Origin: Pseudonocardia sp. CNS-004 | Lineage (GTDB): Bacteria > Actinomycetota > Actinomycetes > Mycobacteriales > Pseudonocardiaceae | DNA length: 64,000 nucleotides | Direction: 5' to 3' | Assembly (NCBI GenBank): GCA_001942185.1 | Contig: MKJV01000070.1 | Coordinates: 1 to 64,000 of the forward strand | Part shown: positions 593 through 53,559 of the stretch, piece by piece | Position numbering within the stretch: the first letter of the stretch is position 1 | Layout: the number at the start of each line of letters is the position of its first letter | Translations under genes and position numbers: made by a program | The notes under the pieces: model-generated | What the model was told of the DNA's origin: nothing | The model's input: only the letters and a program-made list of their open reading frames with translations | Database searches by the model: none

Positions 593-648
593 CCCGCCGC
601 GGCGAGGACTGGACCGATCCCGGTATCCATTCATCTAAGGTCTGCAGG

Positions 649-3188
649 GTGAAGGCGCTTCGCAGGTTCACCGTCCGGGCCCAGCTGCCCTCCGCGCTGG
701 CCCCGCTGCAGACCCTGGCCACCAATCTGCGGTGGACCTGGCACACCCCCACCCAGGACCTCTTCGCCACGCTCGACCCCGACGCGTGGGAGCGCGCGGG
801 GCACGACCCGGTGCGGCTGCTCGGCGAGATCTCGTCGGCCCGCTTCGGGGAGCTGGCCAAGGACGCCGAGACCGTCGTCACGATCCAGGAGCTGGCCGAG
901 GACCTCGCCCGCTACCTGCAGGAGCCGCGCTGGTACCAGCAGGAGCGCGAGGACGACCCGACGCTCCCGGCGGCGGTGGGCTACTTCTCGATGGAGTTCG
1001 GCGTCAGCGAGGTGCTGCCGAACTACTCCGGTGGGCTGGGCGTCCTCGCGGGCGACCACCTCAAGGCCGCCTCCGACCTCGGCGTACCGCTGATCGGCGT
1101 CGGGCTGCTCTACCGCTCCGGCTACTTCCGCCAGTCGCTCTCGCTCGACGGCTGGCAGCTCGAGCACTACCCGGTGCTCGACCCGCAGGGCCTCCCGCTC
1201 CAGCTCCTCCTCGACGCCGCGGGCGAGCCGGTGCTCGTCGAGGTGGCCATGCCGGGCGGGCGCACGCTCAAGTCCCGCGTCTGGCAGGCCACCGCCGGGC
1301 GGGTGCCGCTGCTCCTGCTCGACTCCGACATCGAGGAGAACGAGCCCGACCTGCGCGGCGTCACCGACCGCCTCTACGGCGGCGACCAGGACCACCGGAT
1401 CAAGCAGGAGATCCTCGTCGGCATCGGCGGAGTGCGTGCCGTGCGCGCGTTCTGCGCGGCCACCGGGCACCCGGCCCCCGAGGTGTTCCACACCAACGAG
1501 GGACACGCGGGCTACCTCGGGCTGGAGCGCATCCGCGAACTCCAGGAGCACGACGGCCTGTCGTTCGACGAGGCCGTGGCCGCGGTCCGCGCCGGCACCG
1601 TCTTCACCACGCACACCCCGGTGCCCGCCGGCATCGACCGGTTCCCGATCGACCTCGTGCGGCACTACTTCTCCGACCAGATGCTCCCCGGTGTCCCCGT
1701 CGACCGGGTGCTCGCGCTCGGCGCGGAGGACAACCCCAACATGTTCAACATGGCGCACATGGGCCTGCGGCTCGCCCAGCGCGCCAACGGCGTCTCGCAG
1801 CTGCACGGCGCCGTCTCGCGGGGCATGTTCGGGAAGCTGTGGGAGGGCTTCGACACCGACGAGGTGCCGATCGGCTCGGTCACCAACGGCGTGCACGGGG
1901 CCACCTGGGAGGCCCGCGAGGTCACCGCGCTCCTCGGCGACGCGGGGCACGTCACGCACACACCGCCCGACTCGGTCACCGACGAGATGCTGTGGGACCT
2001 GCGCGGGGCGCTGCGGGCCCGGCTGGTGTCCGAGGTGCGCCGCCGGGTGCGGGAGGCCTGGCTGCAGCGCGGCGCGTCCACGCCGGAGCTGTCCTGGACC
2101 GACCACGTCTTCGACCCCGAGGTGCTGACCGTCGGTTCGCCCGTCGCGTGCCCACCTACAAGCGGCTCACGCTGATGCTGCGCGACAAGGACCGGCTGCG
2201 CGACCTGCTGCTCGACCCGCACCGGCCGGTGCAGCTCGTCGTCGCGGGCAAGAGCCACCCCGCCGACGACGGTGGCAAGGCGCTGATCCAGGAGATCGTC
2301 CGGTTCGCCGACGACCCCGCGGTGCGCCACCGCATCGTGTTCCTGCCCGACTACGACATGTCGATGGCGCGCTACCTGTACTGGGGCTGCGACGTCTGGC
2401 TCAACAACCCGCTCCGCCCGTTGGAGGCGTGCGGCACGTCGGGCATGAAGTCGGCGCTGAACGGCGGGCTCAACCTGTCGATCCGTGACGGCTGGTGGGA
2501 CGAGTTCTACGACGGCGCCAACGGCTGGGCCATCCCCACCGCCGACGGCATCGAGGACCCGGTGCGGCGCGACGACCTCGAGGCCAACGCGCTCTACGAG
2601 CTGCTCGCCACCCAGGTCGCGCCCGCGTTCTACGAGCGGGCGGGCGGCGTGCCGCCGCGTTGGGTCGAGCTCGTGCGCCACACGCTCACCACGCTCCGCC
2701 CGCAGGTGCAGGCCACCCGGATGGTCCGCGAGTACGTCGAGGACTGGTACGCCCCGGCGGCCCGGGCGGCGGGCCGGATCTCGGCCGACGAGTTCCGCCC
2801 CGCCCGGGAGCTGGCCGCCTACCGGTCGCGGCTCAACGCGTCGTGGTCGCAGGTGGAGATCACCGGCGTCGACGCGTCCGGGCTGCCGGACACGCCGGAG
2901 GTCGGCGTGCCGATGACGGTGCGCGCGTCGGTGCAGCTGGCCGGGCTCGCCCCGGACGACGTCACCGTGGAGGCCGTGATCGGGCGGGTCGGCGAGTCCG
3001 ACGACCTCGCCGACGCAGTCACCGTCGCCATGGAGCACGTCGGTGCCGCGGACGGGATGGGCGAGCGGTTCGAGTCGGTGGTCAAGCTGCCGCACGCCGG
3101 GCTCACCGGCTACACCGTGCGGGTGCTGCCGGCCCACCCGCAGCTGGCGTCGTCCGCCGAGCTGGCCAAGATCGTCCTGCCGGGCTGA
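649..3188 (+). CDS. glgP: Alpha-glucan (glycogen/maltodextrin) phosphorylase, frameshifted
   Basis: PLP-dependent phosphorylase releasing glucose-1-phosphate from alpha-1,4-glucans. The N-terminal domain is the DUF3417 type of actinobacterial GlgP (FTVRAQLPSALAPLQTLATN), followed by the glycosyltransferase-35 fold. The PLP site CGTSGMKSALNGG has its lysine at about residue 600. About 846 residues once corrected, a normal length for this subfamily. One base seems lost near 2135 (GTCGG before TTCGCC, where GTCGGG would restore LTVGFARRVPTYKR); the protein is otherwise intact, so error is more likely than decay. The GTG at 649 is preferred because family homology starts there. The 3' end overlaps the convergent HTH gene by 79 bases. 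Confidence 0.9.
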
Positions 3189-49414: not shown

Positions 49415-49509
49415 ACACTCCTAGGCTTTGGCTTTTGCCACAGAACTGAGGTCATCACCGTGGCCGGAGCCGTGGCATCGTGTGGGATGCGCGCAATAGC
49501 GTCGCCTAC

Positions 49510-50582
49510 ATGGGAGTGCTCGGCGAGATCGGTAGGCGAGCGCGGGGGGCTGCGTCCTGGTTCACCCAGCCGCTGCTGCCCGACGACCTGCTCGGCACGC
49601 TGAACCCGCTGTGGTCCACCAGCGAGCCACATGCGCGTGTGGTGGGGCTGCGCCGCGAGACAGCTGACACGACCACGCTGCTGCTGCACACCGGCCGGAT
49701 GCGCATCCCGCACCGGCCGGGTCAGTTCGTCGGGATCGGGACCCGGCTCGACGGCGTGTGGCAGTGGCGCACCTACTCGGTCACGTCCTGCCCGGGCGAC
49801 CCGCGGCTGGCCGTCACGGTCACCGCGGTGCCGGGTGGCACCGTGTCCGGCGCGCTGGCCCACCGCACGCCGGTGGGTGCGCTGCTGCGGATCGGGCCGC
49901 CCGCGGGCGACTTCGTGCTGCCGGACCCGGTGCCGGAGAAGCTCCTGTTCGTCACGGCGGGCAGCGGGATCACCCCGGTCATGGGGATACTGCGCGACCT
50001 CGCGGCCACCCGGCGCAGCGCGCTGGGCGGGGCCGTGGTGGTGCACTGCGACCGCACCCCGGCCGACGTGGTGTTCCGCGGCGAGCTGCGCGCGCTGGCC
50101 GCGACCACCGGGTTGCAGCTGGTCGAACGGCACACCGCCACGGCGGGCAGGCTCACCCCCGACGAGCTCACCGACACCGTTCCCGACTGGCGGCGCGCCA
50201 GGCGTGGGCCTGCGGTCCGGCGGGGCTGCTGGACGCGTTGGACGAGCACTGGTCGCGTTACGGCGACCCCGAGACGCTGCACGTCGAGCGTTTCGTCGCA
50301 CCCACACCGGTCGCCGACCCCGGCACGGGCGGCCGCGTCACGTTCACCACCAGCCGGATCACCGCCGACGCCGGTCCCGGTGTCGCGTTGATGGCCGCGG
50401 GGGAGGCGGCGGGCGCGCTGCTGCCCAACGGCTGCCGCATGGGCATCTGCCACACCTGCGTCGGGAAGCTCCGCTCCGGCGGAGTGTGCGACCTGCGCAC
50501 CGGTGAGGTGCACGACACCCCAGGACAGAGCGTCCGCACGTGCGTCTCCGGCGCCGCGGGCGACGTCGAGATCGAGCTGTAG
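49510..50582 (+). CDS. Ferredoxin reductase with plant-type 2Fe-2S domain (desaturase electron donor), frameshifted
   Basis: About 358 residues: FNR FAD domain (RIPHRPGQFVGIGTRLDGVW, then QWRTYSVTS), NAD(P) domain (LLFVTAGSGITPVMGILRDL, ACGPAGLLDALDEHW) and a C-terminal plant-type ferredoxin with cysteines in NGCRMGICHTCVGKLRSG, then TCVSGAAGD. One base lost near 50193. Same arrangement as Rv3230c, the reductase of mycobacterial DesA3, and it directly precedes a desaturase gene here (its stop overlaps the AGGAG of that gene). ATG 49510. Confidence 0.9.
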
Positions 50583-50589
50583 GAGCGAC

Positions 50590-51743
50590 ATGCCTGACAC
50601 CCCCAGCGCCGTCGGCACGACCGCGGATGCACACCTGACCGACGAGCAGGTCGAGGCCATCGGTGCCGAGCTCGACGCGATCCGCGCCGAGGTCGTCGGC
50701 AGCCTCGGCGAGCGCGACGCCCGCTACATCCAGAAGGTCGTCGCCGTGCAGCGGGCGCTGGAGATCGGCGGCCGCGCCACCCTGCTGTTCTCCCGGTTCC
50801 CCCCGGCGTGGATCGCGGGCACGGCGGCCCTGTCCGTCGCCAAGATCCTCGAGAACATGGAGCTCGGCCACAACATCCTGCACGGCCAGTGGGACTGGAT
50901 GCGCGACCCGCGGATCCACTCCACGACGTGGGAGTGGGACCACGCCTCGCCCGCCGAGTCGTGGAAGAAGTCGCACAACTACGAGCACCACACGTTCACC
51001 AACATCCGCGGCAAGGACCGCGACCTCGGCTACGCGATCATGCGCGTCACGCCGGAGCAGGAGGTGGAAGCCGTCTACCTGCGCAGCGATCTACACGTCG
51101 GCCTCTCCATGATCTTCAGGTGGGGCACCGCCTGTACGACCTCGAGATCGAGAAGGCGCAGGAGGGCACCAAGTCGTGGGCGCAGGTCCGCAAGGAGGCC
51201 CGCGGTCTGTGGCGCAAGGCGCGCAAGCAGCTCGCCAAGGACTACGTGCTGTTCCCGCTGCTGTCCGGCCCCGGCTTCCTCTCCACGATGGCGGCGAACG
51301 CCACCGCCAGCGTCGTGCGCAACATGTGGTCGCACGCCGTGATCTTCTGCGGCCACTTCCCGGACGGCACCGAGACGTTCGAGGAGGAGCGGCTCGAGGG
51401 TGAGACGAAGGGCCAGTGGTACGTCCGGCAGATGCTCGGCTCGGCCAACCTCTCCGGCGGCCCGCTGTTCCACATCATGACCGGGAACCTGTCGCACCAG
51501 ATCGAGCACCACCTGTTCCCGGACATCCCGAGCAACCGCTACGCCGAGATCGCCCCGCGCGTGCGGGAGATCTGCGAGCGGTACGGCCTGCCCTACACCA
51601 CGGGTTCGCTCCCGAAGCAGTACGGCACGGTCGTGCGCAAGCTCGCCCGCCTGGCCTTCCCCGGCGGTGGCCCGAAGGCGGAGGTCACCCCGCTCCCGAC
51701 CCGCCGGACGCCGTCCGGGACCCCCGTCCGCCTCGCCGGCTGA
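50590..51743 (+). CDS. Membrane acyl-CoA/lipid fatty acid desaturase (DesA3-like), frameshifted
   Basis: About 384 residues. Three histidine boxes for the di-iron site: HNILHGQWDW, HNYEHHTFTN and HQIEHHLFPD, with hydrophobic segments in between. One base lost near 51132 (ACCGC|CTGTAC) shifts the frame in WGTALYDLEIEKA. With the ferredoxin reductase upstream it forms a two-component oxygen-dependent desaturase system acting at the membrane. AGGAG 5 bases before ATG 50590. Acyl specificity (probably delta-9) inferred from the pair only. Confidence 0.9.
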
Positions 51744-51807
51744 CGCCCGAACGCGGCCGGCCGCGCTCGTCGCCTCGTGGTGAGGGACCGACCTGGTGGC
51801 GGGCTGC

Positions 51808-51985
51808 GGTGACCACGCTGGTGTGCTGCTCGGGCTGATCAACCGCGCTTGGTCGGTCCGAGCCGTACGTCATTGCTGTGGCGTCGACCGTGGCGTGCTG
51901 TTCGGACTGATCAACCGCGCTTGGTCGGTCTGAGCCGCACGTCCCTGCTGTGAGGGCGGCCGTGACGTGCTGGTCGGACCGATCA
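51808..51985. repeat. 72-bp tandem repeats, about 2.5 units
   Basis: Period 72: the core CTGATCAACCGCGCTTGGTC starts at 51835 and 51907, with a diverged third copy (CCGATCATG) at 51979. Units about 51808-51879, 51880-51951 and 51952-51985. A related unit is found at 15744-15793. Confidence 0.75.
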
Positions 51986-52156
51986 TGCCGACGCCGTCGG
52001 TGCCGGGTTCGAGATCGAACCCCTGGTGTCGACCCGACCATGAAACGCTGCGGTGGGCGCGCCGTACCCGACCGATCACAGGCCCGTCTTTCGCCCCTTC
52101 GACCCGGCCCGGCGTTGCGTTCACCCCCGTTGGTCGCAGACCACCGGTCGGCCCGT

Positions 52157-52680
52157 GGCTGGGTGGGGTGCACTACCGGACCCTGGGGTTGCGTGGACGG
52201 CGGTCCCCGGCTTGGGGGCACGCCCGTTCTGGACGAGACCGTCACCGCAGGGCAGCTACGCGACTGTCCGGTGGTCCCGTTCCCCGCCAGCACAGTTCTC
52301 GACGACAGTCCGGTGCGTTCCGCGGAACACGCCCCGGGGGGAAGTGGTCCACCGGCTCGGCGTCGACGTCACTGCTCCCGGTCGGTGATCCATCAACGGT
52401 GAGGTCCTACGCCGTCCCGGTGGACGACTTTCCTCCCGTTCCCGGCGGCACGAACAGCTCGCGGGCCGGGCGGCACGTGCTCCGTGCGAGGGCCGCAGGC
52501 GCGCGGTACTGGCGGCGCAGCCAGAGTGATCTCCCGGCGGGCTGCAGGTCGCACGCGATCGGCACCACCGGACGTCGCGCGGGCACCCGGCAGCGACGGT
52601 CTCGTCGGAAACGGGCGTGCCCCCGAGCCGGGGACGGCCGCACACGCAACCCCAGGGCCCGGTAGTGAACCCACCCGACC
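52157..52680. repeat. Large imperfect inverted repeat
   Basis: Outer arms 52157-52279 and 52560-52680 pair at about 80-85% by eye; both contain CCTGGGGTTGCGTG, GTCCCCGGC and GACGAGACCGTC. A second pairing (52338-52372 with 52401-52437) lies near the centre, around a short loop at 52373-52400. The intervening segments differ in length (about 60 against 120 bases). Either two inverted copies of one dispersed element or a long structured RNA. Confidence 0.7.
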
Positions 52681-52926
52681 ACGTCGACCAGGCGCGGGCC
52701 AGAGCCGACGCGGGTGCCCACACCCGAATCCCGGACGGGGATGGATGAGATCAGGTCCCGACGGTGACCGGGCGCGCCCACCGCAGCCCGAACCGCTCCG
52801 CGCCCGGGCGGCAGCACGACCGATCCCGGCCCGGGCGGCGTTGACCAAGGGCCGATGGTCGCTGCAGGAGATCGACTGGCGACCATCTCCCCTTGATCAC
52901 CGAACACCGGCAGGGAGAGACGGTGA

Positions 52927-53559
52927 TCACCGCGGATCGCCTGCCGGTCGGACGAGACCGTGGTCCTCGGCGTAGACCTTCCGGCACGACGGGGCGCAGA
53001 AGGCGTGGTCGACGCCGTTGTGCGAGATCGTGTAGCGGGCCGTGGACCATTCGACCGGCATGCCGCAGACCGGGTCGACGGTGCTGCCCTCCGGGGCATC
53101 CGGCAGCTCGCCCGAGTCGCGGAAGCCCCGGGTCATCAGCCGAGTGATCTCGGTGCTGGTGGTGGCCCGGCCGAGCGTGCCGAGGCAGTGTTCGCGCAGG
53201 CCGACGATCTGCACGACGCAGTGGGGTTCGCGGCGTAGCCGGGTCGGGTCGGGCTCCGTCGCGGCGATGGCCTCGGTGATCCGGGGCACGACGTAGTTCC
53301 CGAACTCCCGGTCGTTGCTCCAGGACCGGGGGACCGTGAGCCGCACCAGGTAGCGGGGTGCCGTGCCCGTCGGCGGACCGCCGGTGGCCCATGCCCGCGG
53401 CTGCGTGACCAGGACGTGGGTGAACTCGCGCGCCGACTCCAGCACCGATTCGGGCGCCGACTCCTCGGTGGTCAGTGCTCGCAGCAGGTTGTCGGCGAGA
53501 TCGCGTTCCTCCTCGCCGGTCAGCGTGCGGCCGGAGACGTTCACCTCGATGGTCATCAT
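52927..53559 (-). CDS. Tautomerase-like protein with C-terminal YHS domain
   Basis: 210 residues. The N-terminal about 150 residues (MTIEVNVSGRTLTGEEERDL, then PRYLVRLTVPRSWS, EFGNYVVPRITEAIAATEPD) look like the fold of tautomerase-type proteins but lack an N-terminal catalytic Pro. The C-terminal YHS domain (VDPVCGMPVEWSTARYTIS, then HAFCAPSCRKVY) carries two Cys clusters and is often linked to metal or redox proteins. ATG 53559 overlaps the peroxiredoxin-like stop (ATGA); likely one operon with it. Confidence 0.7.
   Translation of the reverse strand: MMTIEVNVSGRTLTGEEERDLADNLLRALTTEESAPESVLESAREFTHVLVTQPRAWATGGPPTGTAPRYLVRLTVPRSWSNDREFGNYVVPRITEAIAATEPDPTRLRREPHCVVQIVGLREHCLGTLGRATTSTEITRLMTRGFRDSGELPDAPEGSTVDPVCGMPVEWSTARYTISHNGVDHAFCAPSCRKVYAEDHGLVRPAGDPR

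Follow-up and report, generated by a model that had tools for sequence, protein, structure and literature searches.

Comparison with described repeat systems

MITEs are short, gene-less sequences with inverted ends that are found in many copies and derive from a larger element by internal deletion. The dispersed palindromes known as REP or REPIN occur only together with a cognate gene, RAYT (TnpA-REP), which the palindrome flanks; the RAYT protein is an HUH/Y1 transposase. DUF222-HNH genes form a large family to which, to our knowledge, no function has been ascribed. REP13E12 is described as a multi-copy repeat without a defined biological function (PMC13061034, PMC10589994).

The locus analyzed here lies in a 64,000-nucleotide stretch of Pseudonocardia DNA (the window) and shares features with each of these systems. 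As in the REP13E12/13E12 family, full-size Pseudonocardia members encode DUF222 (PF02720) and HNH (PF01844) domains and are present in several copies per genome; as far as the descriptions go, the Pseudonocardia family is set apart by inverted arms, a cognate 16-bp palindrome (GCGTTCCGCGGAACGC, here called M), empty sites and gene-less derivatives. Like MITEs, the window copy is short and gene-less, with inverted ends and many relatives, but its presumed parent encodes an HNH protein rather than a known transposase, and no target duplication was found at the window copy. The likeness to REP/REPIN-RAYT systems is that M is found with a cognate HNH gene (21/22 versus 0/38 genomes, at a cut set post hoc) and flanks it, whereas the protein here is of the DUF222-HNH type and not an HUH/Y1 transposase.

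DUF222-HNH/REP13E12 repeats and MITEs are thus kinds of elements that are already known. The literature searched contained no DUF222-HNH element derivative that lacks the gene and has a cognate palindrome: in the accessible portions of work on DUF222-HNH proteins, REP13E12, MITEs and REPINs (including PMC10589994, PMC13061034 and PMC12542641), we found no account of the arms, of M or of gene-less derivatives. The present results give DUF222-HNH genes defined ends and a cognate palindrome, together with empty sites and derivatives that lack the gene. The role of the protein can accordingly be probed by simple assays of binding to, or cleavage of, M and arm DNA.

Structure of the inverted-repeat locus

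The features of the locus are listed in Table 1. Gene calling placed nothing between positions 51743 and 52927, Pfam matched none of the three open frames scanned within the element, and no remnant of an HNH gene was detected in the window, the 227-nt spacer included. A protein-coding reading of the frames was rejected, given the missing gene call and the lack of a Pfam match in the three frames. The preliminary description of the locus as gene-free therefore stands. The inverted arms that it had placed at 52157-52279 and 52560-52680 are real as well, with a best ungapped block of 99 nt (52166-52264 and 52574-52672 in a repeat search) that is 83% complementary, and the second arm pair that it had seen near the center corresponds to the central hairpin in Table 1. 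Since the arms recur both in the same genome and in congeneric genomes, the inverted repeat is not a product of chance.

The succession of arm, short gap and M in the window copy is the same as in the 5′ leaders of full-size copies described below. A single match to M was found in the window, against 0.18 expected.

Table 1. Coordinates of the repeat copy, its parts and its neighbors in the window
Feature	Position	Strand	Basis or remark
Left neighbor: fatty acid desaturase, C-terminal part, stop at 51743	51120-51743	+	Pfam PF00487
Whole repeat copy, extent common with the second near-complete copy in the same genome (G000:C101, L009)	51801-52905	.	
Tandem duplication, 72 nt, outer left part	51803-51946	.	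82%, repeat search
Left inverted end	52010-52334	+	67.9% over 333 columns versus 5′ side of full-size HNH element L159
Outer perfect inverted pair, 17 nt	52047-52063 / 52771-52787		repeat search
5′ arm, conserved family core	52158-52281	+	family profile match; alignment of 32 arms
Palindrome M (GCGTTCCGCGGAACGC), one mismatch, 33 nt past 5′ arm	52315-52330	.	pattern search
Spacer, 227 nt, occupies the place of the DUF222-HNH gene	52331-52557	.	
Central hairpin inside the 227-nt spacer	52336-52363 / 52409-52436		28 nt, 82%
Right inverted end	52557-52789	-	68.9% over 244 columns versus 3′ side of full-size HNH element L148
3′ arm, inverted	52558-52675	-	family profile match; alignment of 32 arms
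Small hairpin, ~60 nt	52843-52902	.	separate REP-like repeat
Right neighbor, convergent: gene with C-terminal YHS-like stretch	52927-53559	-	gene call, Pfam

Several smaller observations concern the margins of the locus. Pieces of the tandem duplication recur alone, without arms, elsewhere in the genome, and the small hairpin on the right is likewise dispersed on its own, both in this genome and in the congeneric genome G022. The YHS-like stretch of the right neighbor falls below the Pfam cut-off (PF04945, E value of 0.0012, 19.3 bits versus a cut-off of 30.3). The desaturase frame is split over two open reading frames (50503-51342 and 50808-51743), by a frameshift or an assembly indel, and the reductase-like frame that precedes it also looks split (49480-50391 and 49758-50582).

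A dispersed family in Pseudonocardia

Arm copies were found on at least 19 contigs of the window's own genome (G000; G-numbers denote genomes and L-numbers loci in the comparison) at an E value of ≤1e-4, the best 40 of 306 first-look candidates having been scored. Across 41 genomes, the arms were matched in 7, the window's own included, and all 7 belong to the genus Pseudonocardia; 18 of 25 genomes of the genus and all 16 genomes outside it gave no arm match. The comparison of the arms with the host genome and its relatives, which had been suggested in the preliminary description, thus bears out a dispersed repeat. The outcome that would have refuted it, absence of the arms from all close relatives, did not occur.

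The second near-complete copy in G000 (L009) is 90.6% identical to the window copy over 1,042 nt (window positions 51801-52839) and also matches positions 52804-52905 at 88%. Three congeneric genomes hold many further arm copies; in G022, family sequence is present at no fewer than 33 places (15 loci plus 18 of 19 further loci, several of them partial). None of 38 two-arm copies elsewhere has a called gene between or on its arms, and the mean column identity of the arms is 80% over 32 examples. The MITE features of multiple copies, absence of genes and inverted ends are all present in this family. Outside the set of compared genomes, the exact arm pattern had no match in a wider collection of genome contigs, from which near relatives were possibly left out, and plasmid and phage collections contained no DNA match to the element; the plasmid collection yielded one relative of the HNH protein, at 38%.

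This gene-less stretch of 1.1 kb is a member of a mobile DNA family with many scattered copies. The suggestion that a mobile or dispersed element is present here in two inverted copies came close: the arms are the two inverted ends of a single mobile element family, in which full-size members have a DUF222-HNH gene between them.

Empty sites and genomic position

The convergent pair of desaturase and YHS-like genes was recovered in four relatives, which are all those among 29 other desaturase loci with a YHS gene found alongside. The anchors in these genes are separated by 90 nt in G049, 104 nt in G022, and 92 nt in both G011 and G004, as opposed to 1,218 nt in the window. It follows that the window copy was gained by insertion, in the lineage of the window's species, with junctions located to less than single-base precision. 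No target-site duplication was seen for it. At one G022 copy (L053), CTAG is found at both sides; the relative has it once, at the flank on the left.

Two-arm copies are located between convergent genes more often than expected from control gaps (24/38 versus 26/90, Fisher p of 6e-4) and are absent between divergent genes (0/38 versus 20/90, Fisher p of 8e-4), with the proviso that the 90 control gaps are not independent, most coming from orthologous loci. They replaced a first spacing control (4/54 convergent) that was biased, being made of the elements' own neighbors. In Pseudonocardia, the family explains one class of long hairpins that contain no gene and lie between convergent genes.

The excess between convergent genes could mean that the copies are of use to the cell at 3′ ends, as nucleoid sites or as terminators acting in both directions, and the empty sites in the four relatives (L081-L084) do hold other, unrelated short hairpins, one type in G049 and G022 and another in G011 and G004. 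We nevertheless consider such a service extremely improbable. The position is not conserved, as the element is absent at the window site in all four relatives; 18 of the 25 congeneric genomes are without an arm match; and avoidance of promoters accounts equally well for the bias in position.

Full-size elements with a DUF222-HNH gene

Other arm copies of the window's genome adjoin genes in which Pfam confirmed DUF222 (PF02720) and HNH (PF01844) domains; these two were the only domains matched, and no HUH/Y1 transposase was among the results. To count such genes, 49 rows were merged by genome place into 35 distinct HNH places, since merging by shared 60-mers had joined different places, the copies being repeats. 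A profile of the arm detected inverted arms on both sides of the gene at five places (L148, L153, L158, L169 and L159), the 5′ arm only at 15, the 3′ inverted arm only at two, and no arm at 12. The one further place, L012, has an arm and the last 46 codons of an HNH gene and is a deletion intermediate. Some of the 35 places were picked because of their arms; of the 27 found by HNH search alone, one arm or more is present at 15. Contig ends cut several places in G000, so that the one-arm count for this genome is a minimum and a pair of fragments may belong to a single copy as its two halves. In named records, the full-size element is found in Pseudonocardia: both arms and M are present in L252, and L253 has M without detectable arms.

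In full-size copies, the gene between the arms measures 1.4 kb. One complete unit, L153 of G049, spans positions 594-3105 of its locus (2.5 kb), arms and gene together. G064 and G022 lack the whole unit; its flanks are 92-97% identical there and are separated by 9 and 11 nt, respectively.

Given the membership of the window copy in this repeat family, the same inverted arms on either side of HNH genes, and the empty sites, the locus is probably a non-autonomous, internally deleted, MITE-like copy of a DUF222-HNH mobile element. The full-size form would be made of a 5′ inverted arm, M, a DUF222-HNH endonuclease gene, a second M and a 3′ inverted arm. The window copy would have kept both inverted ends and the 5′ M, lost the gene, and been inserted between two convergent genes, where the insertion may have been tolerated because no promoter was cut. 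The copy aligns with both sides of full-size units, and a stretch of 227 nt separates its M from the 3′ arm; it is most simply read as an internal deletion derivative. It has the shared inverted ends of the DUF222-HNH element and M beside the 5′ arm, and it has no gene. As the spacer keeps neither HNH codons nor a 3′ M, the deletion itself is not directly visible, and because the window contains no HNH match, we claim only a gene-less derivative of a DUF222-HNH element. The deleted form presumably arose from a full-size one, and the window copy would have moved in trans; the HNH protein may be the moving enzyme or may act on M or on the arms.

Several observations count against a deletion derivative, namely, the 12 of 35 HNH places without an arm, the lack of HNH codons and of a 3′ M in the spacer, the failure to see a target-site duplication at the window copy, and the terminal repeat of the G022 copies, which was not seen in full-size loci. 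The armless places would also fit a different history, in which the arms form a dispersed palindromic repeat of their own and the DUF222-HNH genes, as well as an IS-like terminal repeat in G022, were inserted beside or between them later. Some HNH copies in G000 have two direct arms upstream (L011 and L018), and the terminal repeat of 19 two-arm or deleted G022 copies is absent from full-size loci, both of which agree with such a history. It is, however, unlikely: five HNH genes are flanked on either side by an arm, the two being inverted relative to each other; both arms and the gene are jointly missing at the empty sites of L153; and the arms are as conserved as the gene, their nucleotide identity being higher than that of the HNH gene in 10 of 15 pairs and lower in the 5 pairs involving L159.

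Folding and conservation of the arms

Folding of the arm region, suggested in the preliminary description, gave structures far better than those of shuffled sequences on both strands (z scores of -12.7 and -13.1 for 561 nt around the arms, with 0/100 shuffles as good). A strong fold is not telling by itself, since any inverted repeat would fold in this way. We compared the left and right arms of single copies with those of different copies. In G022 (24 copies), likeness was 0.842 within and 0.870 between copies; in G011 (4 copies), likeness within copies likewise fell below that between copies; and in G004 (9 copies), the values were 0.831 within and 0.808 between copies, a marginal difference (permutation p of 0.053). 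In G022, 1,999 of 2,000 shuffles were at or above the within-copy likeness, as if perfect palindromes were selected against.

Production of a long structured RNA from the locus, or of an omega-RNA-like guide that would serve the HNH protein, is very unlikely. The fold of both strands and the good conservation of the arms at the nucleotide level (the 80% mean column identity of 32 arms) would suit an RNA, and the HNH domain has a weak similarity to that of IscB (E values of 0.012 to 0.024, HNH part only). On the other hand, the locus has no match in Rfam, pairing within copies is not in excess in two of three species and is marginal in the third, and in full-size copies the arms are parted by the 1.4-kb gene. 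A search for covarying base pairs, also suggested beforehand, found changes on both sides in just 1 of 18 pairs of the consensus fold of a single arm. Together, the Rfam result, the arm comparison (with G004 marginal) and the single compensated pair led us to reject a structured RNA, and the long folded RNA of the preliminary description is not supported. Pairing is not what is kept in the arms; a role in DNA binding is the more plausible one for the arm.

Palindrome M tracks one nuclease subfamily

M is present in 27 of 60 congeneric genomes, at 1 to 97 occurrences per genome, and in none of the other 33; its reversed control pattern is absent from all 60. With up to 2 mismatches allowed and rows with identical last 120 bases removed, HNH genes sharing 53% identity or more with the L148 gene had M within 300 nt after the stop codon in 29/33 cases; in 30/31, M preceded the aligned start by no more than 500 nt. 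For genes less than 50% identical to the L148 gene, the corresponding numbers were 0/4 and 0/5. Five or more occurrences of M were found in 22 of the 60 genomes, and in 21 of these there is an HNH match that is 57% identical or more; the sole exception, G006, is 72% complete. No such match was found in the remaining 38 genomes, 4 of which have one at an E value of ≤1e-60 (46-54% identical). The association has a Fisher p of 3e-15 at an identity cut chosen after the data were seen. M thus tracks one DUF222-HNH nuclease subfamily. Among 298 genomes of the order, M was found in 6, including two of the genus Pseudonocardia and three of one other genus.

Not all occurrences of M are close to HNH genes: others form clusters of up to 11, spaced by tens to a few hundred bases, and an HNH gene was present in 3 of 20 fetched loci of this kind. 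G063 combines 97 occurrences of M with one HNH match. Tentatively, DUF222-HNH proteins could be the enzymes of an undescribed actinobacterial system resembling REP-RAYT, a possibility we consider less likely than not. They would recognize and cut their own palindrome (M in this clade), copy themselves with inverted arms between M-marked ends and spread M, M arrays and gene-less arm elements such as the window copy through the genome; the palindromes would differ in other clades.

Four loci, L175 (1712-2317), L176 (1531-2034), L183 (1519-2074) and L185 (1680-2993), have clusters of 7 to 11 M, and the sequence fetched around these contains no HNH gene. In G009, M lies near single genes (L191-L194); that of L191 is in a coding stretch and may be there by chance. 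No palindrome was seen upstream of the HNH genes of L243, L245, L162, L167 and L172 comparable to those of three more distant HNH genes (L161, L246 and L247), in which the aligned start is preceded, at 60-120 nt, by a perfect palindrome of 20-22 nt that is different from M.

Terminal repeat of the G022 copies

The copies in G022 are about 1.2-1.3 kb long and are bounded by a terminal repeat of their own, (C)TAGTACTNCAGCYSGACTTCGTGATC, adjoining CTAG. Nineteen copies, either two-armed or deleted, carry it. The repeat was found at a further 19 places, of which 18 proved to be more copies of the family, the exception being L119. A terminal repeat common to the G022 copies and the full-size units had looked plausible by eye; it was discarded, as the sequence was not found in 9 full-size loci with up to 8 substitutions allowed. 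Nor is it present in G000 at 3 mismatches, and a search for a partner IS carrying it found none. Because the repeat was not seen in full-size loci, the mover may differ in G022, where another transposase, dependent on the terminal repeat, may move the copies. Four of the G022 copies end at the TAG stop codon of a neighboring called gene.
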